DNA of 64,000 bases from Nereocystis luetkeana. Its lineage: Eukaryota; Sar; Phaeophyceae; Laminariales; Laminariaceae. The number at the start of each line of letters is the position of its first letter. Positions within the stretch are counted from its first letter, which is position 1. The stretch spans positions 14,447,425 through 14,511,424 of the forward strand of contig JARUPZ010000002.1 of NCBI GenBank assembly GCA_031213475.1, in the 5' to 3' direction. The notes beneath the pieces are model-generated. The model was not told the DNA's origin. It did no database searches and saw nothing but the letters and a program-made list of their open reading frames with translations. Shown here piece by piece: positions 1,546 through 64,000 of this stretch. The position numbers and the translations under genes were made by a program.

Positions 1546-2824
1546 CGTGCTTTACGTCCTCTAGTGCCCCTTGAGTTCATTGTTTTGAGGCATCCACACC
1601 AGCCGGTCGTGGCGTCATGACGGAGATGTTTCTTCGTAGTATATTTGTTTGCACAGAACGTGTATCATATACCAGGTACCTGCTACTCGAACGTGTAGTC
1701 TTTGAAATGAATTCAAAACTCAAAGCAGCGTCGGCCTCCCTCGTTCGGAAGCCGCATGCTCTCGTTGCCCCGTCATGTTCGCCTTCAATGTGCGCACCCA
1801 AACGCACAAAGGCTCCAAACTGCCATAATTTCAACCGAGTTTGGGGAACGTACTATTTCCTGCTGCTGTTGCTCTCCTTATTTGGTATGATGTACACCAT
1901 TCTGATACTCAACTCCAGTCTATAATTTTGCCTCTCGCCTAAAAAAACAATATAACGGCAATTATCGCTCGATTTCTGACATCTGGCACGCTGGCACGTG
2001 GTGGCCCGGCAGGTGATGACTCAATACGAGTACGCACACACGTGGAACTGACTTCTGTAGTACGAGTGTACGATTTACGAGTACTCGTACTCACTACTAC
2101 AGCAGGACTATTCGTGCGTCGTGCGGGTGCGAGTATGCACTATTAATACGAGTATTACTCTGTTCTGTGGTATCATGAGATCAATACACCAATATGTTGA
2201 ATGATGTACGTACGTATCGCTACGTGTACCTGGTACCTGGTGTGCGTTTTTGTATTTTTAGCTTGATTTTCTCAACAAATTTCAAGAACAAGGGTATTTT
2301 AGGTTGCGCTATGGTCGAACTGCCGCCACAGTCTCCAAAAGCGACCGTGATTTTAGTGATGGATGATAGATGGGGGGTGGTCCTTGTTGTTTACTCTACA
2401 TCTGCTGTCTGCTGGTTGAACACACCCCATGCGGTTAAAAGGAGGCACCAGGTAACACTCACTACCTGTGTTCTTGGAGTAGTTGTTCGGATGTTATCGC
2501 TCTTCTATTTCTTACCAGTACACACCTGGTACCTGGTACCCTGGTACGTGTTTTAGTTGGCTTGGATATGCGGTCAAAAAAAACTCCTGCTGGTGCGTAA
2601 TTCGTACACATTGGGTCTCCCACCAGCAGCAATGATCCTCGACGTTGCTGCTGGTGTGTTCGAGTACTGCTTCTGCTGGTGGTTTGGTCGGAGCTACTGA
2701 GTAGTACGTTTGCTTCTGCATACCAGCAGTATACCAGGTATACTGCAAGAGAGCTGTGTTCGAGGAGCTCCTGCAGAAAAAACAGCAAACAATCTATTCA
2801 TTCGATCGAGGTAAGTGCCCATCG
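1546..2824. other. Intergenic or intronic DNA with TACC(A/T)GGTA motifs
   Basis: No gene is supported. The stretch carries clusters of TACCAGGTA/TACCTGGTA (about 1669, 2226, 2446, 2525-2550, 2734) and a run of overlapping ACGAGTA words at 2040-2160. Confidence 0.5.
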
Positions 2825-2920
2825 ACCCTTTTAGGACTGCAGTCCCGTTTGGGGACAAACTTCTCAGAATTTGATACACTGGTATGTTTGTTCACAAAAC
2901 GGGACTGCAGTTCTATTTGA
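2825..2920. mobile_element. piggyBac-like MITE (family A) copy 1, decayed
   Basis: Left arm ACCCTTTTAGGACTGCAGTC and a diverged right arm (ACGGGACTGCAG) are present. The right terminal TTAA has been lost. Confidence 0.75.
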
Positions 2921-4064
2921 TCGAGATCGATCGTGGAGCTATCGTACGTACTACTGCTGCAGTAGAGCAGTAGGATACGCGTACGTTTCGAAATTCCAGT
3001 CCCATCACAACTACTATTAATATCAATACTGCTGTAGGTTGACTATAATATTTATGTCATAGAAGATACCTTGTACCTGGTACTAAATAGCATGGCTTCG
3101 AAAGCTAGGAAATATATCAGATGTCTACAGCAGTCGGTCGCGCGTGATCTGTAGCAATGGTTTTGCGGCTCCTGCTCCTGCTGCTGCTGCCACGAGTAAT
3201 GCGACGAGTACCAACAGCAGCAGTACTGCTGTAGGTAGCACACGTATTTACCGGGGGCACTTGTTTGTTCGAAGTGAATCAGATGGTGTGCAGTGTGACA
3301 TATACAGCTATCGTTTCCCACTTTTGGAACTTGAGGGGGGAAAACGTGACGGCCAAAGAGGACGATTGCAGTATAGGCCGCTGCCGTTTGTTTGTTTTTT
3401 TCTGGTTTTTAGATACAGTAGTAGTATTTTATACTGGTAGTAGATACGTTTTCAATTCTGGTGTGCGAACTACGCATCAAGGCTAGGATTCGTACGTCAC
3501 GGGCGCAGCGTGACCCTCCCCGAACTGCTGCGCGCCCTCACCCGCTCGTAGGCCGTCGGCCATTGATACTACTCCCGTGTAGCATACGACCAAATTTACT
3601 TGTCCGGGTCCCGAATAAAGTACGGATCTTCCCACCAGAGTTGTCGATAGGCTATTTCGGCTGTTGGGGCTCTAGTCTTGGTCCACCCGACTCCTCTACT
3701 TTCAATAAATCGCTTTCTGTGCGTTGCGTTCTTCTTTGGTAACGGTATGCTGTGTACCGTACGGCACATTTGACGGTATGACGCGCAAGATGACACATAG
3801 ACCGAATTCCCAAGAGCTGGTTTTCTCGACGGCGAGAAAAGTGCTTCGTATCCGCCGAGTGATGTGTCGAAGGAAAAACTCGTCGAGATTTTCCTGATGC
3901 CACCACATTCGCGTGTGTGTGTCCCCCTTTTCTCGAGGGAGAGACATCGTCTCGGAAACTTGAACCGGAGAGGGTGTATTACAATGTGTGTTATGTTACG
4001 GTATGTTACGGTATGTATACGGTATGTCACGCCCCCCCTCTCCCCCCTCCCGGTATCTGTATTA
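2921..4064. other. No gene recognised; decayed repeats
   Basis: Open frames on both strands at 3144-3440 and 3596-4108 have no recognisable product. About 3787-3900 resembles the low-copy repeat also seen at 16045-16190, 52980-53100 and 57285-57380. A TACCTGGTA motif lies at about 3068. Confidence 0.4.
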
Positions 4065-4160
4065 GAGGTAGGAATGGTTCTCCGTCTCGAAAGGGAATGC
4101 GTGGTCAATCGTCAAATGACTACCAAACGGCAAGCAACAAATCAGTACGCGCGCCCCCCA
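4065..4160 (+). pseudogene. C-terminal remnant of second LINE type
   Basis: Plus-strand translation (IRGRNGSPSRKGMRGQ) matches the tail of the degenerate LINE at 9400-9490 (IRSRNGAPSQRGCLVNGQ). It is followed by the same C-rich end, so this is a 5'-truncated copy. Confidence 0.55.
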
Positions 4161-4424
4161 CCCCATACCTGTACCGGTATATATGTAGGGTTAGTTGGCG
4201 TCGGTTGGCGACGACGCTGTAAGACACGCCTCTCCCTGCTTGAGCTAAAGTAGACATCCAGGGTACCGTTTTATTTTGAATTGATTTTTTGGCGGCCACC
4301 ATGACTGGCGGTCAAGTTACGACTGTAGATCATTTTTGTGCGGGAAGAACTTTAACGCCGCACACAAGCGGGATGGTCGTATCGCGTAGTTTGTACCCGC
4401 GAGGCAGTCACATACCTGGTAGTG

Positions 4425-4975
4425 AATCCATTGCTGTCTCCGGAAGTGGTCTCACCGAAATTTAAACCAACTCATTGAAGCTGTCATCCATGTGCAAGAA
4501 AACCCGCCTCACAAGCGGTTCTTGGTAGGATGCAGCTCACCCTTCATGCGACTCGCCCAACACCTCACGGCGCTTCGCGCTTGGTGCAAGCAATATCTGC
4601 CTGGTTGGTGAAAACTCGACGTTCTCCGTCCCGGCATCGTAGGGATGCGAGGGTCTACGGTCGTGCGACCACGGCCATGCATGACATCGAGTACACCCCC
4701 TTCCCCCCCCCGCAGCATTTCACCCTTCATGCGACTCGCCGAATAGCCCCGGCGCTTCGCGAATAGTGCACGCAAGTAATTTTTATCTGATCGGTGAAAA
4801 CCCGACGTGCTCCGTCCCGGCTTTGCTGTTTGTAGGGATGCGGGGACCATGGTCAAACAACTACGGCCATGGATAATATCGAGTACGCCCCCCTCCGGGT
4901 CCGTGGCCATATGACTACGGCCATGCATGGCATGGAGTACACCCCCCCCCCCCCTCTTCCGTCCGCCCCCTACGA
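4425..4975 (+). repeat. Tandem repeat array (H repeat), LINE-tail associated
   Basis: Two and a half diverged units of about 200-250 bp contain CACCCTTCATGCGACTCGCC, a GGTGAAAACCCGACGTGCTCC-like block, a GGGATGCG block and a CATGCATG block. Each ends in GAGTACACC followed by a poly-C run. The same unit recurs at 9505-9573/10100-10230 and 38255-38935, each time near second-LINE tail sequence. Confidence 0.7.
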
Positions 4976-7133: not shown

Positions 7134-10100
7134 GTGCGCTTGTTTCCAGGCATGGATTGCGGAGGTTGGGTGAGAGGGGAAAGAAAGATATCAAAGTTCC
7201 AAATCCAAGCTGACGGCGGTGTGATGTACCGCCGCATGTGCTTGGAACGTTCGCATCTCGATGACTCTACGGGCTGGTGGACCAGATCCGGCGTTGTCGA
7301 GGTATTGGGGTGCTTGCCTGTATCGTGCTCCTATCGGAGCCTCTTGCTCAAACTCTTACGAGTTTAAAGTATACCACTATACCCCGTTGAGATGGAAAGA
7401 CCGACGAGAACGCCGCCTTTATCATGGTGCGAACCACGTGTCATACCAGGTACCTGGTATGCAGCAATGACCAATAACTCCTTACCCCTTAGTTACACCA
7501 CCCCCCCCCCTCACTTTTTCGAAGAGTTGCACAAGGATCTACCTGATCACCTACTCTATTCAAGGTACCTGGTACCAGGCACCAGGTATGTATTTAACTT
7601 GATAGGAGCAGTCGAAGCAGCAAAGCAGAGAGTCACGGTGGAGGCAGATAGGGTTTGGGGAGTGGCGTTTGCGGATGACGTCGTGGGGATGTCAGAAACA
7701 CTCGAAGGACTGCAGAAACGAACAGAGAAGGCGCCAGAATACTCTGGGAAATGGAGGGTGACGGTGAACGTGAAGATGTGCGCAGTAGTCGTGTGTAACG
7801 AAGATAAGATGAACCCGGTAAGTATCAGTTAGAAGTTGGAATGAATCATCTATCTCAGACCGGCTTACGTACCTTGGCGTAGAGATATCGGAAGACTGCT
7901 CTTGGGATAGACACAGATTGCTCAAGTAAGAGGGCAGGGTGAAGCGGTAAAGCACACGTAGGTAAGATGGATGCGATCCTAACAGACTCGCACCTTGACA
8001 CTATCAATGGGAATACGAAATGTCTATCCTGATAAATGGAATAGTACCAAAGCTAGAATATTCAGGAAAAGTGTGGGAAGAGAGTGCGAAGTACGTAAAA
8101 TAGCTGGAAACAGCAGTTAGATGAAAAACTCCAGCAGTACGAGGATGCTGGGGTACGACGAGTAATACAGCCGTATGAAGGGCAGAACTGGGAATGTACC
8201 CACTCGGGAAGAAACAAAAAACATGGAGAAGTCAGAGTTGAAAGGGGCAAGACTTGGTAAGAAACATACCAAAAAAGAGGTTGACTGCCATGTAGTTGAT
8301 GAAGGTGTATGAGATAAAATATCTAAAAGGCGAACTGGAATATGGTGGGATAGCGGAGTCGAGAAAGTATGGAAGGATGTAGGGAGAGAAAACCAAGAAA
8401 ATATGCTGCCCATCTGTTAAGTTTCGGAGGTTTGTGTGTCTTGCTTGTCCTCACATCAAATCGTTCTTTCTACCCAACTTCATCAGTAGTACACCCAGTG
8501 TCCGTCCTGATTCCTTACCCTAGAGGGGTACTACAGGCCCGTGGTCGCAGACTGCGAGCGAGACAAGAGAAACACAGAAACAGAAACAGAAAGAAAACAA
8601 TCGCAAATTCACGAGTAAAGCAAGTGGATTGCCATCGTACCGGGTCCGAGGACACAAGTACACAGGCAAGACCACAAAATCAGAACAAAAAGACATTAAA
8701 AACAAAACTCAATTCTGGGATGAAACATACTACAAATGACGCAAGGGAGATTAGAAGGGTTGCTATTGAATATTAATAGAAAATAACGTACGTACTCTTC
8801 ATTCAACAAGGCCAGATGGCTGTTGCACGGACGGAGCAACACAAAGGAGAGGAAGATACCCTCGTAAAAACGATACAATACAAAAATAGAGGAACGCATA
8901 GAAAGGAGGGAAAGGCTACTATTAATAATAGCGCCAAGAAGCAAGGTGAAGGCCAAGAAAAGCCCGGAGATATACGGGGGGTTGAGAGAAACAATAGGAA
9001 TGAAGACGTATTTGCACGGCCTTATGAAATTCGCGAAGGGGACCTGGACCTGCCAGAAAGAAGAAAGAGGTATATACTGGTATCGGGGAGAAGAAAGAGC
9101 AGATGCACAGATGTGTGCTTGTGGCAAACCACTGTAGAGTAGAACCTAGAGGAGGAGAATATGAAATGCACAGGGAGGAACGAGATGTAATCGAAGAGGA
9201 GATGAGGGAACGAGACGAACGCGGCATGGAGAAGTTTGGTATACCATGGTACTAGATAGTAGCGAAAGAACGATCGCTGTTCCAGGAGATAGATGGTGTC
9301 GACACGCGTCAAAACAGGAAGGGGTTAAGTTTAGCAAAAAAAAAAAAAAAAAAAGTCCCTGTAACACTTGGCAACAACGTGATGAGCGCCCAGCTGGTGG
9401 AGGTGTCTCTATTAGGAGTAGGAACGGTGCCCCGTCCCAAAGGGGTTGCTTGGTGAATGGTCAAAGGACTATGGCTAGCAACGAGGAAGTGCGCCCCCTC
9501 CCCCCCCGGAATTTGGTACAAGTAACACCTGCATGTTCGATGAAAACCCGATATGCTCCGTCCCAGCGTTGTACAGTAGAGTTGCACCCCGTCTGACTGA
9601 GAACCGGGTACCCGGTGGCGGGTACCTGGACCCGTCGGAACCGGAACCGTCCCGGTCCAACTCACGGAACCGCGGGTATTTGTACACCGGGTACCCGGGT
9701 ACGTATCAATTGTGCTATACGGAGGCCACAAGGCTGGGGTATACGTTGATTTGCACTCCAGCGGCTATGCCTCTAGACCCTCGCCTCTCGCTCCTGCAGA
9801 TTACAGACCAAGAATGGAGAATATACTCCTATTAATACGTGACTTGCCTACCACGCCGCCGCTCAAACGCAAAAAGGGGAGCGAGTAGTGTATGGTAACC
9901 CGGGTACACGGGTACCCAGATACCCGTGTCCGCCTCATGCGCCGCCGCTCAAACGCTAAAAGGGGGGCAAATAGTGTATGGTAACCCGGGTACCCGTGTC
10001 TGCCGAGACCCGGGTACCCGGTTCCGGTTCCGCCTCAACCGCCCCCCACCCGGTCGGGTACCCGGTTCCAATTTTGGAGGCCGGGGTGCAACTCCATTGT

Positions 10101-13100
10101 ACAGATGCGACGGTCTAAGGTCATACGACCAATACCATGCATGACATGAGCACACCCCCTCCTCCCCCAGATGACTACGTGAAGCAACAAATGAGTACGA
10201 TCCCCGCCCCCCCCGAAACAAAATGTCTCGAGGGCCCATAATGTTACTATTAATACCAAGCATGGTAGTTTTGTTTAACGATTGTACTCTAATCCCAAGT
10301 GTTTCACGCCCAAAATGAGGTTACAGCAGTAATGGTGGTAAACTAGGTTGTAAATTCGGTGAGCTCAGTTCCGCCATCTCTCGGCTCGCCTTTTCACTTA
10401 TGGCCCCTCGAAAAAAAATGCGACCCTCCCCTCCCCATTTTTGAGACCCACCCAGACAGGGGGGGGTACACTTGAACCGAGTAAAATACAAATACTGAAG
10501 GAAGAAAAACGTTTTCCGTACTTTCGTCCACGACGCCCAACGCACTTGTTTGTGTTTCACTTCGACACTGGGAAGGAGTTTACTACTTTGTCGTTGAATG
10601 TAACTCGTTTTACACGGAGTATATATGTACTGACGATCCCTATCTTTCGGGACAGGGTGGTAGATCGTGTAATCTTCATATTTGAGCACCTTAGTTATGA
10701 GTTTTTTTCTTTCTTTCTTTCTTTTTGGGACGTACTGCGCAGGAGAGGCACCAACAAAAATTTGGGGTGCTTGACTTTTATTGAAAACCATAACCACGCG
10801 TTTTGGTCGTCGCGATCCCGGACCCGCCTCCGCTTGCTCTCCAGTCGGCTTGGGATGAGTACCTCGCGTGCTTGAGCCGCATTCTGGTGGTCTCAAAGCG
10901 TGACCCCGGTGTGGAGAGGCTGGTTCAGTTTGTCATCTTGCTGGCGGCTTCGGGCGTTGGCGGGAACGAGGAGAAAGGGGGCGGGGCCCCGGACGATGAA
11001 CATGGGGGTGAGTTTCAGCGCGTGTTTGTTTGTTTTGTGTGTTGGCAGGACCAGGTGTGAGCCGGTGTTGATGTCGCTGTAGCTGCTGTCGCTGGTGCTG
11101 GTGCGGTTAGTGCTGAAGGAAGTGCGTTGGGGTTTTCAGGTGCAGATTGCGTTTGCGTGTCGCGCGTGCGCCGTTCCAAGATTTGTCTGTTGGTTCTCGC
11201 CAGCGGGTACCGCCAGCATGATGAGCTTTCGTAAACCACGGCCAGCATATTGAGCGCTCGTTTACCATGGTGTAGGTTTATGACATCTGCCCGCCCAGGC
11301 ACGATCCGTATGTTGTGTACCGGTACGCGCTGCGACCTACAGGCCGTGGAGTGTTTCCAGGTACAGCGACCACACACCACACAGCACAACGAACCTGCCA
11401 GGCTTTTTTTTATACCCCGGTAGTTAGGATGAGGGTTAGGGATCCTTGTGGAGGTGGTGCATGTGAGTTCTTCACATTCTACCGATATTCACTCCGTTCT
11501 ACCCGTCGACATCCAGCACAACAAGTTTCGGTCCCTATGCTTTAGTGCTGGAGAGATACAAGTTGTGTCGTCACGAGACTACGACACGGAGATACCACAT
11601 CCTATTAATACCTTGTCATGCAGGAATCAGAGTTATGAGAATGCAATGCCGTGTCATCGTACTGGATACGACAAGCACAAGATACACGTTTTATGAACAA
11701 CAGAAAATTAAAGAAACGAGAAAAATCGGAACGAAAGGAAAGGAAAGAGGGAAAATTGTCGTGCCCCTCATTCACAGAAGGAAGGAGATGTTACACACAA
11801 AACAAAAACAAGCAAAAGGAATGTTGCCACCACAAGTTAAACAGAGTAATTAAGGCTGAGAACCCTAAGCAAAGAACAGGCAAGCCGAATCACAACAAAA
11901 ACGAAACAAAAGGCACCCACCCTCCTGGCAGCCGCAGCAGTTTTGTGGTACGAGTAGCGTAATCAGATTCTGCAGGGTGTACCTACCAATCCCCGGTGGC
12001 TCGGTAGGTGGTCCGCGTGCCTAACAAGATCAATTGCGTGGGTTCAAGTCTCACTGAGTGCATGCCTTTAACCCCTTTAGAACCGCAGTCCCGTTTGGGG
12101 ACAAAACTACTTGAAATTTGACTGGTTTGTCCCCAGAACGGGACTGCGGTTCTAAAAGGGCTAAGGACTTTTCTTGCGTAAAAAAATGATGAGCGGAAAG
12201 CGCGAGAGCGTGAGTTAACTATGTACATTCGATGAAAATCGGCCAAGCAGTGGGAATGCTGCACCCTATGCGCGACTAAAAACGAAGGCACGTACCGGGG
12301 GGAAGAAGGGGCGACACTTGTGACCAAGGTTTGTCCAGAAGAAGAGACCGCTGAGGGTAAAACCTTCTACGAGTTGGGCTTGAAAGTAAAAGTGGTAATT
12401 TATTTTTAAAAAAAATCAAAAAAATCCGTCTGGTACCTTGCTACCCTGTCTGCCATCTTCTTCCTGCTTTCGTCAACCGTGCCCCACCCCCGGAGAGGGT
12501 GCGTCAGGAAATGCAATATCAACCCAACAGAACAGGCTCGTCATCCGCCTACGAAAGTAAGACTCGTTTTTTCCCCAAGGACAAGAAGGAAGACAGATTA
12601 CTACTTGATTACATATACCTGGTGACCTGGTAAAGGATTAACCTATTAATAGTAGGGAAGGACAGAAAGCAAGGGCAAGAAGCGAACACAGAAAAGTAAT
12701 ACCAGGTATCAACTACAGCAGTTAGTGATACGAGGGGTTGTAGGAGCGCTGTCGTGACCCCCTTTTTAATATTACGGGGGGGCAAAAAATATTGTAAGTA
12801 AAAAATGGTTAAATATATGGGTTTTTATGTACACCATAGGTCCTACCAGGTATTAACTATGGTCCCCCGTAATAGTTCAAGAGACAAGAAGGAAGACGGA
12901 TAAAAGAAAAAGCACCAGGTACGCCTGAACTTGACGTACTGATGGAGACAGCAAGCGAAGGCAAGAAGCGGCCCCAACAAAAAGGAATTAGAAATGCAGC
13001 AGTACTAGGAGGGGTTGTAGCATCGTTGCTGGTGTCCCCCCGGCGAAGCTGGTATATACTTACAGCACAACAGAGAAATGGATCGAAAGCGAAACAGAAA

Positions 13101-16100: not shown

Positions 16101-19100
16101 AAATACCGAGCGACGCGTTGCGCTAGCGATGCGTCTATAGCAACGAGGTTTCGACACAAGTTTTCCAAAGCCACCTTTTTCGGTCGTGCGTGCCTGCCCT
16201 CCCTTGTACTGACGGGGAAAACGCCTCTGAGATCCAGGGCAGGGCGTGTGTTTTCTTGCGTGTTGTACGGTTGGGTGTTCTTGATAGTTCTCCACATTAG
16301 ACCGTTGTTTCTACCCGTCGGCATTTCCGGCACACCCAGTGTTTGTGCCGATTCTTCAATCCTGGATAAGACACAAGCTCTGGGGTCACAGAACACCGAC
16401 ACGTTCAGAAAATTTACTCTACGTTGTATCGCGGTGAGCGGAGTAGACACTGCTGCAACTGTTGTACACGGTACGGTAGACAGGTGCTAGCCATGATTCC
16501 GGAGCAGTGGTCGCCCGGGTAACTTTCGCCGCCCCGTCTTCCACCCTTTGAGAACCGCAGTCCCGTTTTGGGGACAAACCAGTCAAATTCTAAGTGGTTT
16601 GTCCCCAAAACGGGACTGCGGCCCTAAAAGGTTTGAGTCAGACGTAATATTTTGCCATATAAGGCAAAAAACGTGTTACCCGTACAAGGCAGTAACTACG
16701 CTTCTAGGACTGCTGTCCCGTTGTGGGGACAAACCTCGGAATTTCCAAGTAGGTTGTCCCCAAAACGGGACGGCAGTGCTAGAAGGGTTCATATGTGGTG
16801 TTGTGACAAAACTCTTGGCCTCATTGAAACACTTATTTTGTGGAGGCACAAGATATGGATTGTGCCCATGAGGAATTGTGCCCGGGGAGGAAAATCTACA
16901 GCGGCTGCATTCGCGTGTTGACCCTTTTATAACCGTAGTCCCATATGTGGGGACGAACCACTTAAATTTCAAGTACTTTGTCCCCAAAACGGGACTGCGG
17001 TTCTAAAGGGGTTAAGGATTATTCGCTTTCGTGGTGGGGTTGCTGACAGCAGCTGCGCCCAGAAACGGTGGCGGTGGCGGCATTTTTTATTTTATTTTTT
17101 GTCGCGGGTTAAAGGGATACTATTAACACTAATTTTATTCTACAAGTAGGCTACAATTGTCGGTCGTTGCTGTCACGTCAAGTCGGTAAGATGGCAATAT
17201 CGACTATTAATATTAATATCATACCCTCGCATGAGTACGAACGCATGCGAGGTGCGCCAAGCGAGAGCGGCCCCTTCAGCCATTCGAAGTCCGTCGTAAC
17301 ACCCGACCGCGATACGCCCACAATTTGACGACAGCTTTCAAGCATCCTGCTGCGCGAGTTCATATTCAATAGTGTTGGCGACAGTTTCAAGTGTCCTGCT
17401 GCGCGAGATCCGAGCGACAACTACACGCAAGTTCATCATCCTGCTGCACGAGTTCATATTTATCAGTGTTGGCGACAGTTTTAAGTATCCTGCTGTGCGA
17501 GTTCTTAGCGACACCTACACACAAGTTAGCTACCGCAGTTGCAGGTATCTTGCTGTGCGACTTCCTGGCGACAGCTGCGCAGGATGCTCGTAACTATTAC
17601 CAGGTATTAATAATTATTAATACTACTGTCGTCTACCTGTCTACCTTGGGTACGTGTGGTGTGTGTTCTTCACATTAAACCGTTCTTTCTACCCGTCGAC
17701 ATCCAGCACAACCAGTGTCCGTGCCGATTCTTCAATCCTAGAAGATATACCAGGTACAAGTTATGTGGTCACAAAGCTACGCCACAGAGATACTACGTTG
17801 CCACGTACCAGGTATGCAGTAAGCACTGCAGTGGGCAATGCAATGCCATGTCATCATACTAGATACGGCGGGCACGACATACACAATCTATGACATAGAG
17901 AAACGAAAGGAAACATCCAAAGAGAAAACAAACAAAGTAGACAAATATACCAGTATGACGAAAGCTTCACATGTTCAGGCAACTCAAAAGACGTCCCAAG
18001 TTTTCTCCCAGCGTCAAACTTCAAAACTCGCGCAAAATGATGAACTCAACTATCAATATTATCACTTTGCAGAGAGCGCATGTTGTTGGTTGCGCTTTCA
18101 CCTGGTGGCCAGCTTTTTCTCCCGAGCAACCACGTGGGTGACATGAAACACGAAAGATGAAAGCCATGCGGTGAGCCAGCGTCAGATTCTCCGCGTCCCT
18201 TCGCGAGGTCTAGGTAACCATTTATTTTGACTTTATGGTTGCCTTGTGTATGTGTATATGTGTGTGTTCTTCACATTAAACCGTTCCTTCTACCCGTCGA
18301 CATCCAGTACAAGTATTCTGGGGCCAACTCTGAACGAAATGTGAAGATCGTTGGGGTACAACCAGGTACCAGGGTACATAAGAAGACCAAGCGATGTCAA
18401 CATTTCCGGATTTATATACCTGGTATGTATGATACCTGCAGCAAGTAATGTGTGTGTCCTTCACACAATATCTTTCTTTCCGCCCGTTGACATCACAGCA
18501 CACCTATTAATAGTGTCCGTGCCGACTCGTCATGCTCGAGAGAGACGTGTGTGTTCTTCACGTTAAATCTTTTATTGTACCCGTCGACTTCCAGCACAAC
18601 CAGTCTCCATATTGCCTCTTCGATTTTAATTATTCATTAGAGAGCGACGAGCGCTGTGGTCACTACACCACGACGCAGTTATAAGTGGTCACTAAACCTC
18701 GACGCAGATATAAGAGTGCGTGTTCTTCGCATTGGGACGTTCTTTCTACCCGTCGACACCGTACCGATTCTTCGCTCCTAAGGAGATACCAGTACGAGCT
18801 CTGTGGTCACTACTGTAAACTCCGCTACTGCAGAGAAATGGTACTGCATAGTTTTTTATGCAGTAAACAGAGTATTGTTGTTGTTGTTGTTCTCACATTA
18901 ACTCTCTGACGAAGGAGTCCGTGGTCACACAAAGGTGCTGGAGCCCTAGGAAGATCCGAAAAACAAAAAAATTTTCGAAAATTCGGCTGCCTCAAAATAC
19001 ACGAGACGGAAAAAGCGCACACAAGATAAAACCAATGTGCAAAACTGAACTAACATGGCCGCGGGTATATCCTCTCAACTATAATATAGAAGAGTACCCC

Positions 19101-22100
19101 CGTTCCCACCACTAACCAACTCGTGGCTGCTGACTACAGCGGATGCTGTCTGAAGTGCTGCCTGCACCGTACGAAACGCACGGTAGTCGTGAAAACGAAA
19201 GAGGAACACACCTCCTGCCTGCTATCTGGAGTGCTGTCAGAGTGAAGACTCGCGGATATGCAGTGAAAAAAGGAGCAATCGAACCTTACTACCACACGAA
19301 TATCAACGATCGCCATCTCTTCCTGGACTGTCTGACACAAAAAGGTGCAGCACAGTTTTGATACCACGTCCCTGATAATTGCGTAGGTTATTCCCCATGA
19401 AGGGTATACAACTCGTTAAACTACTAAGACCAGTGACGAGTACCGGTAGATACTATTCTGCCTCGTGAAAAACAATACCAGGGAAAAAACAAACTATGAC
19501 TGCTTCTCTCGTGATGATAGTGTGCGCGCAAATCATGGGTCTCCATGCACCGTCTTCCTGCCGCTCTTCATGGCCGCATCATCGCCTTGGCCCAATCCAC
19601 CCGCTCCTTTGCGCGTGCACTCGTTGCCATTCCCTTCCAGTCGTTTCCCTTTCTCCGTCATCCTGAAAAACAAAATGCTCCTCGCACTTGCGGTTCTGAT
19701 CTGGGAAATAAAAATTCTCGCGCAGGGGGAGGTCAATCCGTCTCTTCTCCGCACGTCGACGCTCAGTCTCCCTCCTCCCTCGTCGTCGAATCCAGCCTCC
19801 TACCGGCGCAATAGACTGTGCCGTAGTGTGGCCTGTGGTGGCGCCTGCCTCCGCGCATGGACACCCCGATTGAGCATTGCTGCTCTGCCGCAGCTGCCTA
19901 AAAAGACGCGCGAATCGTAGGTCTCCGTGCCTGACGCACCACGTACGACCCAACTCTACTGCCGCCTGAGCCTCGCGGCCACAGGCAGCAGCAAGAAGGT
20001 ATCACTCCTTGAGGGTGAGTCCGGCCTTACACCCGCCAGAAAGACCTACCCCACTCGCTATTAGCCTGATAGGGCATGCCTCGCAGCATTCCTTGCCGAG
20101 GCAGCGAGGGGAACGGAAGGATGTATGCAATGCTATGTCGTTGTACTGGATACGGAATACACGACATAAGAGATCCTTCATTACTACCAGGTACCTGGTA
20201 TGCAGCAACAGGACAGCAGCAGACAACTCTATGTGTGTGTGTGTTCTTCACATTAAACCGTTCTTTCTACCCGTCGACATCCAGCACAACCAGTGTCCGT
20301 GCCGATTCTTCAATCCTAGAAGAGATACAAGTTCTGTGGTCACAAAGCTACGCCACAGAGATACTACGTTGCAGCGTGTGCAGTGTGAACTGCAGTGTGT
20401 GTGTGTGTGTTCTTCACATTAAACCGTTCTTTCTACCCGTCGACATCCAGCACAACCAGTGTCCGTGCCGATTCTTCCATCCTAGAAGAGATACAAGTTC
20501 TGTGGTCACAAAGCTACGCCACAGAGATACTACGTTGCCACGTGTGCAGTGTGAACTGCAGTGGGCAATGCAAAGCCATGTCGTGCTCTGCCTGCTTCGG
20601 CCTGCCCCGTCCTTGGGGTGGGCCGAGGAAGTCTGCCAGGACCTGCAGCGGTCTAGCGACAGTCACACGAACATCGAGCTTCGGACTACGTAGGTAGGGA
20701 ACCTTGCGCGGTCCGGCTGGTGGCCTGCTCGCTTTAAGGACCGCGTGGGGTGGTGGTGATGTTTTTTCTTCTTAACCCCGACGCCGAGGAGTTCATCCCT
20801 CAGGCGGGACGGGTACATCACCACAGCAGAGAGCGCTACGTGGGCAGCCGGTGGAGTGGAGAGGCTGGCCACAGCGTGGGTATGCATGCACGACAGGAAG
20901 GATGGGATTGTCGGCGTGGGTTGGGACGGCTGCACCCAGCCAACGGAAACCAAGGCGCGTACCGGGCTACGAAACGGAGAGCCACTTTCGCCATAGAGAA
21001 AAAAAAGAAACAAAAAAAGAAAAAAAGAAGGCGGGGACGAGCCTCACGTCGGCTGGCAAAGAAAGCAGCACGCGAGGCTCGTAAGAGACAGAAGGAGGCA
21101 CTTGTGACGGTAGCGACCTACAATGTGCGCACCCTGGCTGTAAAGGGGAAGAACGGGTACGGACATGACGAGCGGGTACTGGCGAAGGGACGGCAACTCG
21201 GCTGTGACTTCATTGGCCTGCAAGAAACTCGGAGGTCCGGCAGCACGACGTTCCGTGCGGCAGGGTATCGTGTTTTCTGTTCAGGACAGGAAACAACAGC
21301 CACCAGGCAAGGGCTGTACGGAGTAGGCCTAGCTGTCAAGGAATCGTTGTGCAGTAAGTCTGTGTATACTCATCAGTTCGTTGACGAGCGGCTAATGTCT
21401 ATGCGCTTTGAGCTGGCTGGCAAATGCGAGGCAGTCAATTTCGTCGTTGCGTATGCTCCAACTGATTGTACCAAGGACGCCGAACTGAAAGGTATCTTCT
21501 GGCAGAAGCTGGAGTACTTGGTGAAAAAAATCCCGACGAAAGAGTGTCTGTTTGTACTGATGGATGCCAACGCGCGAACTGGACAGAGGAAGGAAGGGTG
21601 CGGTGATGATGAAAGCAGAGTGCTGGGAGCGTATGGACGTGATGTTCGTAACGATAATGGCAGACGGCTCCTGTCGTTCGCCACCAATTGCAAGTTGGCT
21701 CTCACCAACACGTTTTTCAGCACGCGCAAGGGTGGGATATCGCATACTTACAACGGCACCGGCCCGAATGACCGTAAGCGGATTGACTACATCCTAACCC
21801 GTCAAGTCCATCGACCTAGAGTACAAGATGCGAAAGTCGTCCCACAGCCTCCTGCCCCAGCTAAGGCTGACTCAGACCACAACATCTTGTATATCAAAGT
21901 CCGACTCGGTGGTCGTTTTGCGCCCAACAGACAAATACGTAGACCGACGAAACGCCGAGAGTTCGACAGGCAGCTTTTTATGTCCGATGGAAATTGTCGT
22001 GAACGAGTAGTCTCCAGGATCATCTCCACTCTCAACCAGCCTATCCAGCCCCGTAATACGTCTGGTATGGTTGAGATTTTCACTGCGGCTGTTATTGATG

Positions 22101-34100: not shown

Positions 34101-37100
34101 GCAAGCGGGATGGCGGGGTATATGTCCCTTCTGTTATGGTTGTCTCGCCCTGCTACAGTTATTAATAGTAGTCCAATTCTCCCCGTTTCGCACCTGGTAA
34201 CTCAGATCCGGAGTGACATAGCGGTCAATTTTCTCACCCCCCCCCCCCCCCCCTCCTCCTATATACTACGTGGTACGGTGTGCGCTTTCATTTTTGTCGC
34301 GAGAGAAGCGTTCAGCATTTTCTTCCCTCGTCAATTTTTCGCAGCGAGTCAGGCACACACTCTGCTAGACGCAATCTGATAGTTGTATCAGTTTGCCCCC
34401 CCCGCCCCCCCCCCTTATCTCATACCAGTATGCCAGTATAGTGTTCGCCGTTATTTTTTATCTCCCTCCCATTGACCCTTTTAGGACTGCAGTTCCGTTT
34501 TAGGGACAATTGGGGACAAATTTCTCGGATTTTGCGGTCGTTTGTCCCCAAAACGGGACTGCACTTTTTAAAGGGTTAAATAGTCGTGAATCACATCCGG
34601 GGTCACGTAAGTAGGTAGTACTGTAGGCTCTACCCCCCTCCCCTTTAAGGGGCGTGCCTTGCTTCTATGGCGGAAAGGGTTACAGCAACGTTTTCCCTCG
34701 TCGACTGCCGTCTAATAATTGTGCCGTACCCACGCTACAACAGGCGCTCTCGACAGCAGCAGCAGTTGGTACCATTTGAGAACATTTGGTTTGATAATAT
34801 CGAGGTCGGATTCCCCGGCTCCTACGCTATTATAATAATAGTGTATGTTCGAGGTTGGCCATGATGAGCCACCGGGGCGATATTGTACCGCCTTGGTCGT
34901 TCGACCATCTCGACAATGCATCCGTTTCGAGACCGAGCACCTTCTCTACACACACTATTGATAAAACAGAAAAGACACCTGGTACACCATTTCGACGCTC
35001 CACGTTTTTTTTGCCGTAAGAGGGGGGGGTGGTTGGGGGCGTTCTAATGTATGGTACCTGGTATTATTTAGTTTTCGGCGTTTGCGTCACGTGGTCCTGT
35101 TGTGACGTGGGCGATTGATGAATTGATCGGTTGGTTGGCCGGTCGGCGGATCAGTCCATCATGTCTCTTCCTACCTGCTCTCTTTTTGCACACCCGGCTC
35201 TGGAGTTACGCTTTACGCGTACGTATACAGTAGCGGGAAGGGGGTAGAAGAGCCTGCTATGTGACCCCGAATCTAAGGTACGAGTTGGAAGGAGAGAGAG
35301 AGAAGATGTGCGAAGGTACTAAATGGGATGAGCACAAAAAAAGAAAAACAGTACTCAAGGATCAGGAGAGAAGAGCAGGGGGCGGGGGGGCGGCGGAATA
35401 GAATGTTCAGCAGTAGTAATATTAATACCTGGTAGTGGTTTTCGGCGGTGGTTTGCCGGTTGGCGGATTAGCCCACCGTTTATCTCTCCCTCCCTGCTCT
35501 TTTTTTGGCCTGCCCGGCTCTGGAGTTACTCTTCACGCATACATATTGCTCGAGGATCAAGATAGAAGAGCTGGGCGCGGGCGGGGTGGCGGCCGAATGT
35601 TCAGCAGTTGTATATATACCCTGATAGAAATTTTCGGTACTGCTTTGTCCTGATCGTTGTGCATGCATGTGGTGATGTTGGTTGATTGTTGTGTGGTTGA
35701 CTGGTTTACCCCTTCATCTCTCCCATGTCGATCCCTGCTCTCTTTTGCACCTCCGGCTTCCGAGTTATTTTTCGTTCCTCTATGCCTGGTACGATTCCTC
35801 GTTCGTTTTTTTTTTGTCCGTGGCCCGACGTTTGTGGCTTGTGACCCGCCGCACGCGGGAACAAACAGACCGTTGCGCGGTTCGCGCTCGGCGAATCTTG
35901 AGCGGTAGGAGCAGGGGTGCGACGCTGATGTGTCGGGGTAGAGCCCTATTCGCCCGTGGGTGTGATCTGATGCCTCTTGCGAGCGCGAAGCAATCGGTGT
36001 TTCGGTGACACGGTCGTCATGTTACCAAGAAGGTATCTTATTAGGACTCCGGTTCTGGGGGCAAATTACTGGGAATTTTCTGTGGTTCGTCCCCAAAACG
36101 GGACTGCAGTCCTATCAAGGTCGCGACCCCTTTTGGAATCTCACCCACGTTTTCACCATCCCAATATGACGGTGCGTGGAATTACTCCGGTAGTAGAGTC
36201 GCGTGCTGCTTGCAGTGAGCTCAGACCCTTGGCAGTTTTTCCATCTCATGCCTGGTACTAGAAGTAGTCTACAAGTATCGTGACTAGAATTGATATCGGG
36301 GGTTGTCCAAAAATCACAAGCAGCCTGCACAATTGACCTCGGAGACTTGTCTTCTGTCTATACTAACAGATACAGAGATACCTGGTAAAGGTTAGAGCGG
36401 CAGGAAAAGGGGGGCAGGTATACATACTGCTCACGTTCCGCCTCCAGTTGTCATTATGGACAAAGCTCCAGCTATTAATATTACGGTGGACCATAGTAAA
36501 TACCTGGTAGGACCTACGTTACACTTAAAACACCTACTGGTACATATTTACCTGTTTTTACCAACAATATCTGGTTCTATTTGCTGTGGGCCCCCGTAGT
36601 AGCGGTTGTAGACACGAGCACGTCGGATAATCTCACAGGTGCACGCTGTTATCGACGCTGCTCCCGCTTGGCACTCTGATCCCACTTGATACCCTGGTAC
36701 CACCCAGTGGCGCAAAAATGTAATCTGCCCCCGGCAGGGTCCACCAAGGCAATCCGCTCCTACGCGACTATATCCACCGTCATCGGGGTTTCCAAACGAA
36801 ACGGCGGCAGCAGTAACGGGAACCATGCAATGAGTCATTTTTTACAGTAGTGTTCGACATGTGGATTCCTCCCCCACAGCCACTAATGTCGGGAGACGGC
36901 ACTTTTACCCCTTACCAGACACCGTCAAGGCAAATGTCTTGACAGACAGCCTTGACAGCCAAAACCCGGGGACGTTAAGAACAAAAACGTTCTTCCGGAA
37001 ACGTCTAAAAATAGTGTCGAAAGTAGCGTGTTTTCTTGGGGGGTTTTTCGGCATTTTGGTGCGTTTCTGGGTCCGATCTACAGAAAAATGCATGTGAAAT

Positions 37101-46100: not shown

Positions 46101-49100
46101 TGGAGTTCCCGCACTCGTATTCATATCGTGCGTCTTTTTGGGAGGATTGATTGTGGAATGCGGGCTACATTTTTTCGTCTATTGGCGGGGCCCCCTCGCC
46201 CGGGAAGGGCTGACTTCAGCCGTCAAGTGGGCTGGCCGGCCGTGCCAGCTGCTGATGGCCGCCCGACTTGCCAACTAAAGTCGGTTGGTTGGCCAACGGA
46301 AACTACTGATTAAGGTGTCAGTCGTAGGATCCCGTGTTGCCCCCGCAGCATCGGAGGTACGAAATCACCAATAACCAATAACCAACCAGTGAGTGGTGAA
46401 ACACACTGTCTGCCCGAAGCATTCCGTGCATGGTTTGCTACTCCTACAACAGTGTCGACTGATAGAAAGAACGAAGAACACACGCAGGAGTCGAAGGACT
46501 CTTCCTGTGAGGCACCACACAGACACAATTGTTGCCGCTCGTTTTTCGGTTCCGTTGGGCATTGGACCGTCGGCCTTTTGCTCAGGTCTCTCGTACATTT
46601 CATACACGACAGCAGTTCGTACGTAGCCTCTTGCATTGCCCATGCTTACCCCTGCTTCGCAGTTTGGTATAATGTTGTGTCTTGCTTTTGTGACCCCATA
46701 CTTTCGAACTTTTTGTCTCTCTTCGTGGGATGAAATATCGGCACCCGGCATGTGGTTGGTCTGGCTTGTGTCGTATCGGGGTTGTTGTCATTGCACTTGC
46801 TTTACCTCGACCCATTTTATTTTGCGCGATATTTACGTATATTTTTTTTCTTTTTCTCACAGTCTGTGCCCACCCAATTAGAATTAGTACCAGGTGTCTC
46901 TCGTAGATAAGGATTCAGGACTGACCTACTGCTGCTGTTGTAGGTTCAGTTTGAAGACAACACACGCTCTCGGCGTGCTGGATTTTGATGGGTAGAAAGT
47001 ACCAGGTACGGTTTAATATCAATAACATACATGAGTACTCTCTCGGTGTTTGTTTTCCATGGCTGAATCGAATGAGGTCTCTTTTTTGTCCGAGGAGACT
47101 GGACCACTTATTCGAGACTATGGTTGATACTCGTGGTTTTCCCTGTTTTGTAAAATACTTCATTATCTGAACCCAAACATGACCTATGGAGGTCTTCCCT
47201 CCCCATGTTTTTTTTTTTCTTTTTCTCATCTTATTAATTATCTTCGCACATCTTCTTCTCTCTCTCCTTCCCACTCGTAGCTCAGATCCGGGGTCACATA
47301 GCAGGCTCTTCTCCCCCTTTCCCGCTACGGTACGTGCCTTCATTTTTATCGCGAGAAGATTGCAGCCTTTTCTTCCCTCGTCGACTCGCATCGAATTGTG
47401 CCTACCCACGCTGCAAGGCGCTCTCAACAATTGAATCCTTTTTTATTTTTTAGTTTTGCAAATAAAGTTAAAGTCCGACCCACCTGGGGCTCGAACCCAG
47501 GACTCAAACAAGTAGAATTCGAGGTTAACCCCTTTAGAACCGCAGTCCCGTTTTGGGGACAAATTACTTGAAATTTGACTGGTTTGTCCCCACATATGGG
47601 ACTGCGGTTCTAAAGGAGTTAACCACTTGAAGCACCGGGGCGACCGGGGCTGCCGCTGTGGTCCCTCTGTTGTTTGGGTGTTCTTTCTACCCGTCGACAT
47701 TCAAAGACACCCAGTGCGTCCGTGCATGTCCTCCATTCTGAAGAGATCGTACTGCCACGGGTACACACGTGTGGTATGATTCAAAACGCTTGTGGACACA
47801 AATACGAGAGGAAACATACACCGCGAGTCGACGAGGGAAAAAACGACTGGAGTTTCGTCGCGATAAATCGGAAAGCACTAACCACACTGGGAAGGGGGGA
47901 GGAGAGTCTCCTGCTATGTGAACCCCGTAACTACTGTACTGCTCCAAGTTAGGACTATATACGGGGGGCCATGTGCCGGCGTCCCCGGTGGCTTGGTAGG
48001 TGGTCCGCGTGCCTATCAAGACCAATTTCGTGGGTTCAATCATCCCACATGCTCTTGCCTTTTTCCTGCGAAAAAGAAATTGATTAGCGGAAAGCGCGAG
48101 AGCGTGAGTTAGCTACATTCGGTGAAAATCGACGAGCAGTGGGAATGCTGAACCCTATGCGCGATAAAAAATAAGGGCACGTACCGGGGGGGAGAAGGGT
48201 GGACACCTGTGACCACGGCTTGTCCAGAAGCTCGTTGAGGGTAAAAACCTCCCACGAGTAAGGGTCAATCTTAACGAGGAGTGCTTTTCTGTTTTTTTTT
48301 GTATTTTCCCGAAATTTCGATATTTTCCTATAGGAAAAAAACGATAAATACCGAAATTTCGTGAGAACACTGAAATAAACCTATAAAACAGCCCTCGTTA
48401 AGATCGACCCTAAGGCTGGAAAGTAAAAGTGATGTTGAAAAAATAAATATATAGGACCTACAGTATTACACACAAAAACCTACCAGTTACTTGGCATATT
48501 ATTTCGTTATTTTATCCAACAATATTTGGTCCTATTTACTACCAGGGTATGGTTTTTTGTAAATACTAGTAGGAGGGAGAGATAAAAGAAGGGCGAAGAT
48601 AATGAACGCGAATATGACAAAAAAAAAAAATGAATAAAAAACATCGTGAGGCATTACTGCTGTAAGGGTAAGGAGATCAGGTCATAGGCATTGGAATGGG
48701 TGCCCGGCCACCGTACCGGATACGACGAGCACAACGTAAACAAAGTGAACAAAAATGATGGTACGAGTCGTATGAACGATGTACCGCCGCTGGCATGTTA
48801 CACCTATTCGTAGGTGTCGTCGAAGAACCTACAGCCGCAGCAGCGCGTGACCCTCGTAAAGATGGGGTTGTCGGACGGCTCCGAGGCGGTGGTCGAGGGG
48901 TGCCGTTTCATGATCTGTGCACACTGGTTCCGGGAAGTCGGCTACGATCCGGTGGAGCTGCTGAGACGCCTGGACGTCCTTGGGAACGAGGTGCGTCGTT
49001 CTTTTCGCCTGAAAATGTGTTGGGATCGTACATTCGGTAAAATACTACCAGGTAGTGTGTACGATAGTACCGGCGTTGAACATAGCGCAGTACGGTAGGT

Positions 49101-56336: not shown

Positions 56337-56366
56337 GTGAGGCGTGCGTTCGTTTTTGCTCATAAT

Positions 56367-56474
56367 ATTACGGGGGACCATAGTTAATAGGACCAAATAT
56401 TGTTAGTAAAAATGGTCAAATATATAGGTTTTTATGTACACCACAGGTCCTATTAACTATGGTCCCCCGTAATA
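56367..56474. mobile_element. Family B MITE copy 10, near-perfect
   Basis: ATATTACGGGGGACCATAG to CTATGGTCCCCCGTAATAG with nearly exact terminal inverted repeats; an empty-site reference for the 7-bp insertion at 12844. Confidence 0.93.
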
Positions 56475-56642: not shown

Positions 56643-56755
56643 CTATTACGGGGGACCATAGTAAATAGGACCTGACGGTACACATAAAAACCTTTCTATT
56701 TCCCTGTTTTTACTAACAATATTTGGTCCTATTTACCATGGTCCCCTGTATTATA
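56643..56755. mobile_element. Family B MITE copy 11
   Basis: CTATTACGGGGGACCATAG to CATGGTCCCCTGTATTA; internal sequence inverted relative to copy 10. Empty-site reference for 36501. Confidence 0.9.
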
Positions 56756-60776: not shown

Positions 60777-60830
60777 ATACCAGGTACCTGGTATATACCA
60801 GGTATATACATATATATATATATATATACG
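60777..60830. repeat. Stacked TACCAGGTA/TACCTGGTA motifs next to (TA)n
   Basis: ATACCAGGTACCTGGTATAT then ACCAGGTATATACATATATA: three motif units sharing TA, beside a (TA) microsatellite. Confidence 0.85.
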
Positions 60831-61770: not shown

Positions 61771-61853
61771 CGTATCTCTCTCACAGTCTTGTGACTACAT
61801 AGTTACACGTATATGACATACCTGGTATATATCTATGTATATATATGTCAATA

Positions 61854-61950: not shown

Positions 61951-61959
61951 CAGTAGTGT

Positions 61960-62060: not shown

Positions 62061-62159
62061 TCTCACAGCTAGCTGCCTGATAGCACAAAATTAGCGTAGC
62101 TCTATTTAGGACAAGGAATCACCACGCACCGACACTTGGGTGTGCTGTGTGCTGTGTGT

Positions 62160-62375: not shown

Positions 62376-62754
62376 AGAGGGAGTACTCGTACTGACTGGT
62401 GACGTAGTTGGGAAAGAAAGAACGTGTTTTTGTAAAGATAAAAACACACGACTCAAACGCGCAGATTTCAATCACCCCTACTCCCTCCCCTCCTTTTACG
62501 TATTATAATACGAATAAATTTGGTAGAAATAGATTTGTGGTATATAGGAACGCGATTTGACCCCTTTGACCGACCGCCTCTTTACACTACTCTAGGAATA
62601 AAACTAAATCGCTATCGGACCGCATTCATTCCCGTTGTGGAAACAAAAACACTTGGAATTAGAGTTAGATTTCGGCTTCTGCACGGCAGTTTTTTGTTTG
62701 CTCTTGGTTTATTTATTTCCCGAGGTACTTGTATCTGGAGCATTGCAGCAGTAG

Positions 62755-62972
62755 CATGTGTCTGTTGGGTCTGTTGCGCCCAGCACGATGACATGATTTT
62801 GCGTTGTCTACTCTGCTTGCTGCATTACAGCAGTAGCAGTGCGGCGTATCTCTTGTGTGGTGGTTTTGTGACCCCTATCTAGGATTGGAGAATCGACGCC
62901 GACACTGCTGTTTGCTGTTTGTGTGTGTGGATGTCGACGGGGAGAAACAACGGTTTAATAATGTGAAGAACA
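62755..62972 (+). mobile_element. RTE tail copy, diverged
   Basis: GATGACATGATTTTGCG, GCGTATCTCTTGTGTGGTGG, TAGGATTGGAGAATCG, GGATGTCGACGGGGAGAAAC and GTGAAGAACACACAC. Confidence 0.78.
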
Positions 62973-63109
62973 CACACTTCCGTAGTATCAGATGCTGCGG
63001 TACCTTTTTCTGTAGGATGTCATACGCATCATATCTGAGCAGTAATCTAACTGGCAGTGCCGTGGACTGCTGTCTAGACCGTACCCCTCTGGACTACGGT
63101 ACAGCAGTA

Positions 63110-63285
63110 CAGCATCGCATTGCCTACTCTTCTTAACTGCGTCGCGATGCACAGCAGTGGTGTATCTCTGGGCATGGCATTGGATGGTCTCTGTGTTGAA
63201 AATTTTGTCACCTCAAAATCATAGCTCTCTATTCTATGTCGGTGTGCTGGATATCGACGGGTATAAAAATGAGGCACACAGCAGG
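63110..63285 (+). mobile_element. RTE tail remnant
   Basis: GTGTATCTCTGGGCATGGC, GTGCTGGATATCGACGGGTA and GAGGCACACAG. Confidence 0.55.
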
Positions 63286-64000
63286 AATGACGTATATACC
63301 TGGTATATATATACGATATGTAGTCTATATATATGATTTGAATATCGGGCAATACAAATACCTGGTAGCAGGCGACAGGATACAGAAGTTAGCAGCCCAG
63401 ATTCCAGGTGACCGCCGTGTCGTCTTGTCTTTGAATATACCTATTAATAGATGGTGCTACATTTGCCGCTCCCCTGGGACAACAATGCTAATGCTGCCGC
63501 TCGGCTGTTATCTTGTGAGATTCGTAGCGCCCTTGTTTAAAGTCGATCAATTGTCTGGGCGCGCTACTCAGGAGATTTTGCTACGAGCTCTCGTTGCCGC
63601 CGCTGCCGTCTAACCCCAAGCAGCTAGCTCTAGTGACTAAACACTTCCGACTGTCGTCTGATCTCGCCTCATCTCACGATTCTGCAAGCTTCTTATAATT
63701 CCAAAACGCCTCCACAAACTCCACCTCCCTACGGGAAGTTACATTTTCGTTCAATCCCCGATATTCCTGGTAGTGCCGATAGTGTATGATATTCACGTAC
63801 CAGATATACGGTAGTGCACATATACCTGGTATGTCACACTGGTACGTATCGTACATACCTGGTACAACAGTACACGCTAATACCTGATAACCGCTTGAAG
63901 TTTCGACGAAATCCTCGACCTCGCAGCTGACTTTTTTTTTTTATAGTCTACATTCAATCTCGGTTTTCGTGACAGCTACACAGCAGCAGTCAGTGTACAC

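Follow-up and report, generated by a model that had tools for sequence, protein, structure and literature searches.

TACC(A/T)GGTA, a 9-mer dispersed through the genome of the kelp Nereocystis luetkeana, is very probably the excision footprint of a TA-targeting transposon

We analysed a stretch of 64,000 nucleotides of Nereocystis luetkeana (assembly GCA_031213475.1, contig JARUPZ010000002.1, positions 14,447,425 to 14,511,424; the whole stretch is called the window below), through which the 9-mer TACC(A/T)GGTA is scattered. The nad2 protein from the mitochondrial contig of the assembly, with 94% identity to a cluster named after Laminaria solidungula, 92% to Saccharina and Macrocystis and 90% to Undaria, places the source among the kelps or their close relatives. 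An exact scan finds 54 copies in it (24 TACCAGGTA and 30 TACCTGGTA when read on the + strand). A preliminary description of this DNA had put the number at about 50-60 by eye, and each of its 28 example positions is no more than 8 bp away from a true copy. The copies are:

1670..63864, no strand assigned: all 54 exact copies of TACC[A/T]GGTA (exact scan), with first bases at 1670, 2227, 2530, 2732, 3074, 4413, 5126, 7444, 7451, 7566, 12700, 12844, 17598, 17748, 17806, 18417, 20185, 20192, 26466, 27506, 32327, 33127, 35055, 35426, 36379, 36501, 39966, 40867, 41223, 42521, 47000, 49046, 50411, 53533, 54577, 54774, 57032, 57136, 57561, 57593, 57629, 57979, 58056, 59363, 59467, 60778, 60785, 60796, 61016, 61819, 63297, 63359, 63823 and 63856

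The window also holds an intact-looking long interspersed nuclear element (LINE, 20738-24490) with an uninterrupted 1,250-aa frame that includes endonuclease and reverse transcriptase domains; its closest proteins are 78-81% identical. The 9-mer had been described as absent from this frame, and it is (0 copies), but the absence is not significant, only 1.9 copies being expected from the number of TAs in the frame. Directly downstream of the LINE lies a stretch of ∼1.24 kb (24760-26001) whose ends are inverted copies of each other and which has a 206-bp tandem repeat inside.

How unusual is the number of copies? Markov models of orders 1, 2, 3 and 4 predict 0.4, 0.6, 1.0 and 2.2 copies in the window, respectively; orders 5-7 predict 16-52, because such models already hold most of the motif. 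Behind poly-C and poly-A, TACC(A/T)GGTA is the commonest 9-mer of the window, and it ranks first by Markov excess (54 versus 2.2, order 4). Neighbours of the motif with one mismatch are also enriched in the window (41 versus 17.7 expected), while neighbours with two mismatches are not (170 observed, 171 expected). The preliminary description had proposed a genome-wide count against a control. In the whole assembly that contains the window (465,085,209 bp, 1,987 contigs), with the reversed pattern as the control, we counted 182,395 exact copies versus 1,744 (∼105-fold), far from chance expectation, and 367,383 versus 66,255 when up to one mismatch was allowed; 24 unselected 10-kb stretches contain 103 copies in 240 kb. 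The excess is thus real and strongly non-random. The A/T centre had been called ambiguous. Each copy shows A or T depending on the strand that is read, so that there is no ambiguity in itself, and we discarded the centre as a sign of a mismatch, since any such 9-mer would look the same.

Repeat copies with and without the motif were compared in a sample of 329,045 bp of the same genome, which consisted of the window, 20 stretches of 10 kb from contigs C1-C20, all taken at the same offset, a further 5 stretches of 10 kb, and 5 short loci. The sample is biased in that the 5 short loci were centred on motif matches and one 10-kb stretch was chosen where matches were listed; the 24 stretches counted above are its unselected subset, and some earlier scans included one extra short locus (332,054 bp). 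An all-against-all alignment of the sample was scanned for 7-bp gains, and a second, stricter script required a change from TA to TA-X-TA. An exact 7-bp gain reading CCAGGTA or CCTGGTA after a TA was present at 11 distinct sites, and CCAGGTA, in any rotation and on either strand, was the commonest 7-bp insertion (11/47 events). The stricter script returned 65 sites for any X, with CCAGG at 10 of them and CGAC at another 10, and with C, A, CAG, AC and TTAA at 3 sites each. (The CGAC gains may come from one repeat subfamily; 8 of their 10 sites were shown, with support of one each.) Of the 172 motifs in the sample, 26 could be aligned with one or more other copies, and for 9 of these 26 a clean TA counterpart was among them; the remaining aligned motifs faced TG, shifted gaps or only poor flanks, and poor flanks were set aside. 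We read these differences as gains and not losses because the empty alignments are the majority at well-covered sites (e.g. 8 TA and 5 TG versus 1 filled). What is seen in the repeat copies is therefore a TA-bounded insertion with the TA duplicated, TA to TA-CCWGG-TA, known from its scars alone. The five filled/empty pairs given in the preliminary description, when read side by side, all gain CCAGGTA or CCTGGTA after a TA, three of them with one substitution. A fixed 7-bp gain, as had been claimed, is the main class in repeat alignments, but other classes exist too. The following sites in the window carry this evidence:

4413..4421, no strand assigned: footprint with one empty (TA) repeat copy (repeat alignment, both scripts)
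12844..12852, no strand assigned: footprint in a copy of a short inverted-repeat element resembling a miniature inverted-repeat transposable element (MITE-like); alignments kept: 8 TA, 5 TG, 1 filled, 3 other
17748..17756, no strand assigned: footprint in repeated sequence; 9 alignments show the gain (pair of the preliminary description, re-read)
17806..17814, no strand assigned: footprint in the same repeat as the 17748 footprint; alignments kept: TG 3, TA 2, GTG 2, 4-nt variant TACTGGTA 1
36501..36509, no strand assigned: footprint in a MITE-like copy; alignments kept: TA 5, filled 1, GTA 1
47000..47008, no strand assigned: fifth filled site of the preliminary description, empty counterpart near 25330, one substitution (side-by-side reading)

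Several scars sit within diverged copies of a high-copy MITE-like inverted-repeat element, which is found in the window at 56366-56474 and 56644-56755 and has ends like TATTACGGGGGACCATAG. Of 4,302 first-look candidates for this element 40 were scored, and nearly all of these match the first 96-104 query bases at 97-100% identity.

Does the motif arise at any TA, or are some TAs preferred? The flanks of the 172 sites were read outward from the TA and compared with the flanks of all TA sites. Flanks with up to two mismatches from CCWGGTA had been removed beforehand (344 reduced to 292), so decayed nested copies are not the source of the preference that we found. This preference is symmetric around the TA and extends out to +7: A is depleted at +1 (0.05 versus 0.20, P = 8e-19) and favoured at +2 (P = 7e-10), T is favoured at +6 (0.40 versus 0.24, P = 2e-13), and A or T make up 0.82 of the bases at +7 versus 0.52 in the background (P = 1.5e-22), with a weak signal past +7. 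The preference at +1, +6 and +7 was seen separately in the window and in the remaining sample. Target choice at TA is transposase-like.

Ends that both start with CCAGG predict, when their joins are trimmed or shifted, the variants TACCAGTA, TACCATGGTA and TACCAGGGTA, while ends starting with CCTGG predict the mirror forms TACCTGTA, TACCTAGGTA and TACCTGGGTA. In the sample, TACCAGTA occurs 39 times (16.4 expected) and shares the flank signature of the scars (z 7.1), TACCAGGGTA occurs 15 times (0.94 expected; flank signature z 4.7), and TACCATGGTA, with few copies, 3 times (0.58 expected; flank signature z 4.7). Of the mirror forms, TACCTGTA is found 14 times versus 10.8 expected (z 0.8), TACCTGGGTA twice and TACCTAGGTA once. 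A further form that is compatible with either type of end, TACCGGTA, occurs 17 times in the sample versus 5.3 expected (z 6.5). Genome-wide there are 13,000 sites of TACCWGGGTA (771 in the control), and among 100 matches listed 93 are TACCAGGGTA, with A, and 7 are TACCTGGGTA, with T, or 86:7 when an eight-copy array is counted as one copy. That array (contig C1, 1304145-1308362) repeats TACCAGGGTA eight times, mostly in 528-bp steps, and is evidently a tandem array with one variant scar. At one TA of the MITE-like family (locus L026, position 7056), 7 alignments show TA, 1 the full footprint, 1 TACTGGTA and 1 a nested decayed pair, besides others. Dimers that keep both 5-nt ends, with 0 or 1 base between, are found at 113 places genome-wide (control 7), many of which resemble nested pairs minus one base; their rarity is as expected, because the overhangs would pair. 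The minor variants fit trimmed joins of CCAGG ends, not CCTGG ends. What can be deduced from them of the terminal inverted repeats of the proposed element is the first five bases only, CCAGG at both ends. The 6-nt variant was located in the window by a position scan:

2537..2546, - strand: TACCAGGGTA, joined to the footprint at 2530 by a common TA
18367..18376, + strand: TACCAGGGTA
36690..36699, - strand: TACCAGGGTA
48540..48549, + strand: TACCAGGGTA

Three other short sequences, TATATATA, TAGTAGTA and TACTGCTGTA, were rejected as further footprints of the CCAGG element, being simple repeats or having flanks that do not match the signature. The last of these, TACTGCTGTA / TACAGCAGTA, occurs 36 times in the genome sample versus 1.8 expected, in diverse contexts, and may represent short CAG repeats or a further type of scar.

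These variants bear on a self-spreading or templated micro-insertion, in which an enzyme would cut at TA and a fixed piece of 5-7 nt would be copied in, without any larger element ever being involved. The preliminary description had named it as an alternative, and it would account for a gain of mostly one fixed length and for a parent element that is not recognised. Under it, however, one would not expect the variants of 4 and 6 nt to fit trimmed CCAGG joins and not CCTGG joins (A and not T on one side), nor footprints of different lengths at one TA among repeat copies; moreover, a second family of gains with a TTAA core and another target preference (see below) would require a second such enzyme. 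We therefore disfavour the micro-insertion and regard it as unlikely.

The motif is instead very probably the excision footprint of a cut-and-paste transposon that targets TA and whose two ends both start with 5'-CCAGG. Such a transposon would insert at a TA and duplicate it. At excision, the non-transferred strand would be cut five bases inside the element, so that each flank would retain the 3' overhang TA-CCAGG, and the two overhangs could pair with each other (C:G, C:G, an A.A mismatch, G:C, G:C) and be ligated. Resolution of the mismatch to A:T would leave a net change from TA to TACC[A/T]GGTA, and occasional trimming or mispairing would yield TACCAGTA, TACCGGTA and TACCAGGGTA. A five-base footprint of the Tc1/mariner kind had been the leading idea of the preliminary description, and it gains support from the 7-bp gain at TA, the target preference and the CCAGG-trimmed variants. 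Together with the one-mismatch excess and the sheer numbers, these are direct observations; from them we infer the 5-nt stagger, the mismatch step, hopping without replication and a place in the Tc1/mariner superfamily, perhaps within the pogo branch.

Copies of the motif can also share a TA, as at three places in the window (all from the exact scan):

7444..7459, no strand assigned: nested pair with one TA in common (TACCAGGTACCTGGTA)
20185..20200, no strand assigned: nested pair with one TA in common
60778..60804, no strand assigned: nested pair and a third footprint

The nested pattern TACCWGGTACCWGGTA is found at 15,917 places genome-wide, compared with 2 in the control. (Viral contigs carry it at 9 loci, which were not used as evidence.) With nested chains collapsed, there are 18 cases of scars <60 bp apart, compared with 7.7 (sd 2.7, maximum 17 in 1,000 rounds) when TAs were resampled within loci, a spacing that fits local hopping or hot regions. 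An assembly or base-calling artefact could be considered, as CC(A/T)GG sites trouble some base callers, but a base-calling error would make neither a 7-bp gain at TA, nor a preference reaching 7 bp out, nor nested copies, and we consider this source extremely improbable.

How old are the scars? The genome-wide excess over the control amounts to 180,651 exact and 120,477 one-mismatch copies. Taken as the neutral decay of one 9-bp class, the one-mismatch excess suggests a mean divergence of up to ∼7% per site, which is an upper figure because some one-mismatch variants differ by origin. The scars thus seem to be old on average and not under selection. A site kept in the genome by selection, for protein binding, methylation or chromosome structure, would explain a near-palindromic 9-mer in 105-fold excess, and CCWGG is a known bacterial methylation site. 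Such a site would not be expected to be gained at TAs of unrelated repeats, to have many one-mismatch relatives as if it were decaying, to nest, or to come with graded variants that have a flank signature in common, which makes this explanation hardly credible. The TA boundaries and the great number would also suit short elements bounded by TA, similar to internal eliminated sequences (IES-like), that are removed in development by a programmed or domesticated elimination and leave imprecise scars; one 29-bp TACCTGG...CCAGGTA stretch (locus L007, also in the overlapping L008) has the form of such an element. A single stretch of this kind is about the chance expectation in the sample (0.5 by our own estimate), the one-mismatch excess points to old, inherited scars, and we know of no programmed elimination in brown algae, although no search for it was made; IES-like elements are therefore very unlikely.

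Can the excised element itself be found? The preliminary description had suggested a search for a parent with CCAGG or CCTGG ends next to TA. Among 1,140 pairs of TACCWGG and CCWGGTA lying 60-7,000 bp apart in loci of this genome, none was convincing; the best was a candidate that we rejected, and the others look like chance. This best candidate (24790-25971 in the window, with inverted-looking ends TACCAGGCGG) fails because its inverted repeat continues beyond TACCAGG on both sides. Half-motifs TACCWGG without a following TA (130 in 282 kb) have no common extension that would mark a frequent element. With protein profiles of transposases, DDE_3 had no match in the genome at E ≤ 0.001, and Transposase_1 had none either, though this profile gave no signal in control genomes. 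The DDE_1 (pogo-type) profile gave 28 matches. One of these loci, L044, contains a TA-flanked element (38-2061) with part of a DDE_1 (pogo-type) transposase gene between TACAGTGGGG and CCCCACTGTA; its ends are 8 bp long, TA-CAGTGGGG on the left and CCCCACTG-TA on the right. It has the left end in common with locus L046. The two also share a block of 288 bp (100% identity) and one of 395 bp (99.7%), and the element was probably mobile recently, to judge from these near-identical copies. This is good evidence for past movement of pogo-type elements inserted at TA in this genome. The scar predicted from the L044 ends, TACAGTA, is found 111 times versus 49 expected, and a gain of it is seen at 3 sites, no more than for several other short gains. 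The 111 TACWGTA sites in the genome sample are flanked preferentially by G at +1 and by T at +2, like the family described below and unlike the CCAGG scars. At locus L045, copies resembling the footprint flank the frame at positions 613 and 2726; they agree over 7 bp only, and we read them as scars and rejected this locus as the parent.

A second dispersed micro-insertion is present in the same genome. It changes TA to TATTAATA, with the core TTAA, and is seen in filled and empty repeat copies, e.g. at position 4567 of locus L013, which has many empty copies; 3 sites of gain pass the strict TA to TA-X-TA script. Over both strands, CTATTAATA has 92,674 matches genome-wide, compared with 3,256 in the control. 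The TATTAATA family resembles the CCAGG scars in that a short self-complementary core plus TA is gained at a TA, and differs from them in its 4-nt core and its target preference: G, T and A are preferred at +1 to +3, and the flank score trained on CCAGG scars falls below background there. Because of this different preference, two or more transposases have probably left scars in this genome. In the window, the sequence stands at the following positions:

TATTAATA, not each shown to be a scar: 1159, 2141, 3015, 8771, 8920, 9830, 10248, 11603, 12644, 13956, 17205, 17211, 17605, 17615, 18505, 34160, 35420, 36473, 38092, 54475, 58340, 60172, 60639, 61072, 63442

Several results weigh against excision of a CCAGG element. 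The parent with CCAGG ends, which the preliminary description had sought too, was not recognised in the loci examined, and none of the 5 of 28 DDE_1 matches that were examined (L044-L048) has convincing CCAGG ends, L044 having other ends and the remainder no clear ends. The main footprint, with 5 nt, lies outside the 2-4 bp given for Tc1/mariner elements in the part of the source seen (PMC7913693), and the 4-nt and 6-nt forms are minor. The nested copies (15,917) exceed both chance from TA density (∼1,320) and the prediction from target preference (2.8 times chance). The orientation of the 59 nested places listed on the + strand (AA 23, TT 17, AT 14, TA 5) is the same in 40 and opposite in 19; half of each is expected of independent insertions, and therefore this ratio suggests that some nested pairs are tandem duplications, contrary to a pure insertion account of nesting. 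TACCWGTA is only modestly enriched genome-wide (67,239 versus 37,562), and among 100 matches listed A is slightly more frequent than T (58 versus 42), as expected of a common 8-mer with a partial excess. Finally, the predicted 3-nt joins TACCATA (50 versus 44, z 1.3) and TACCGTA (88 versus 43.5, z 0.6) lack the flank signature in the sample, and trimming to 3 nt is therefore unsupported.

The surprising parts are the number of scars and the absent parent element. The preliminary description had objected to its own idea that the copies are far too numerous. The number is surprising indeed, yet it can be answered: an element that does not copy itself would leave a trail, and its scars could outnumber its living copies. 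A few copies that keep moving, without necessarily multiplying, could write a very long trail of neutral scars, for which, by our own estimate, a small excision rate per generation suffices over tens of millions of generations. On balance we favour a low-copy, perpetually hopping lineage with a 5-nt stagger and self-cohesive ends that underwent ∼100,000 or more excisions in this kelp lineage and whose scars far outnumber its living copies; the excess of places with up to one mismatch is 301,128, a number that includes copies made by repeat or tandem duplication. A transposon that has self-pairing ends and is cut with a 5-nt stagger, as yet undiscovered, is thereby predicted. If this is true, the scars of several TA transposons (CCAGG, TTAA, perhaps CAG) are a major, overlooked class of dispersed sequence and record transposition and end-joining repair in a form that can be dated, and the mark that mobile elements leave in a genome can be larger in scars than in the elements themselves. 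Repeat annotation would probably miss such scars because units of 7 bp are too short. Excision footprints are usually studied in assays or small sets, e.g. 94 events in rice (PMC4423477, seen in part), while 182,395 intact footprints would allow transposition rate, target choice, repair fidelity and scar decay to be measured from sequence only, per site and species. They also raise the question of why end joining in this kelp so strongly favours one product.

Among the open PMC papers listed, judged by title, we found no report of such a motif in kelp. The 9-mers are contained in 217 papers, and the 20 of these that were listed seem, again by title, to concern primers, barcodes or unrelated sequence. 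In the parts of the sources seen, Harbinger, Jerky and Pogo-like elements are described in Ectocarpus (PMC3145265), the word 'mariner' is absent from the main text of two kelp genome papers (PMC4421812, PMC10498591), brown algae go unmentioned in a survey of pogo-like elements (PMC7325037), and Passer is an element of the pogo group (PMC9976928). The pogo-like (DDE_1) elements of this genome, such as that in L044, also have TA on both sides, and differ in their ends CAGTGGGG, which predict TACAGTA and not TACC[A/T]GGTA. PIF/Harbinger elements duplicate a 3-bp TWA target; here the shared target is TA, and the next base outside it is T or C in 82% of the flanks kept. piggyBac uses a TTAA target and excises without a footprint (PMC7351741), whereas here the empty site is TA and a scar remains. 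The excision footprint of Sleeping Beauty, of the Tc1/mariner group, reads TAC(A/T)GTA. Sleeping Beauty cuts three bases inside and leaves 3-nt 3' overhangs, its end-joined footprints being identical to the overhangs (PMC7827188), and cleavage in Tc1/mariner elements is two to three bases inside (PMC2170065). The kelp scars differ from Sleeping Beauty in having five bases and not three, in their number (182,395 without a recognised element), in a preference that is strongest at +1 and +6/+7, and in that the transposase and inverted repeats were not found; they are alike in the TA target and its duplication, in an odd-length self-pairing end with a central A.A mismatch, and in a symmetric, A/T-rich target context. 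The proposed element would thus work like Tc1/mariner, but because the scar is 5 nt long we do not file it as a proven member. Stowaway/mariner MITEs leave cut-and-paste excision scars in genomes (PMC4561436), and in rice 8 of 94 DNA-transposon excisions left just the duplicated target, the others having deletions or filler (PMC4423477). Both the rice events and the kelp motif, on our interpretation, are cut-and-paste excision scars, but while the products in rice were varied, here one footprint dominates.

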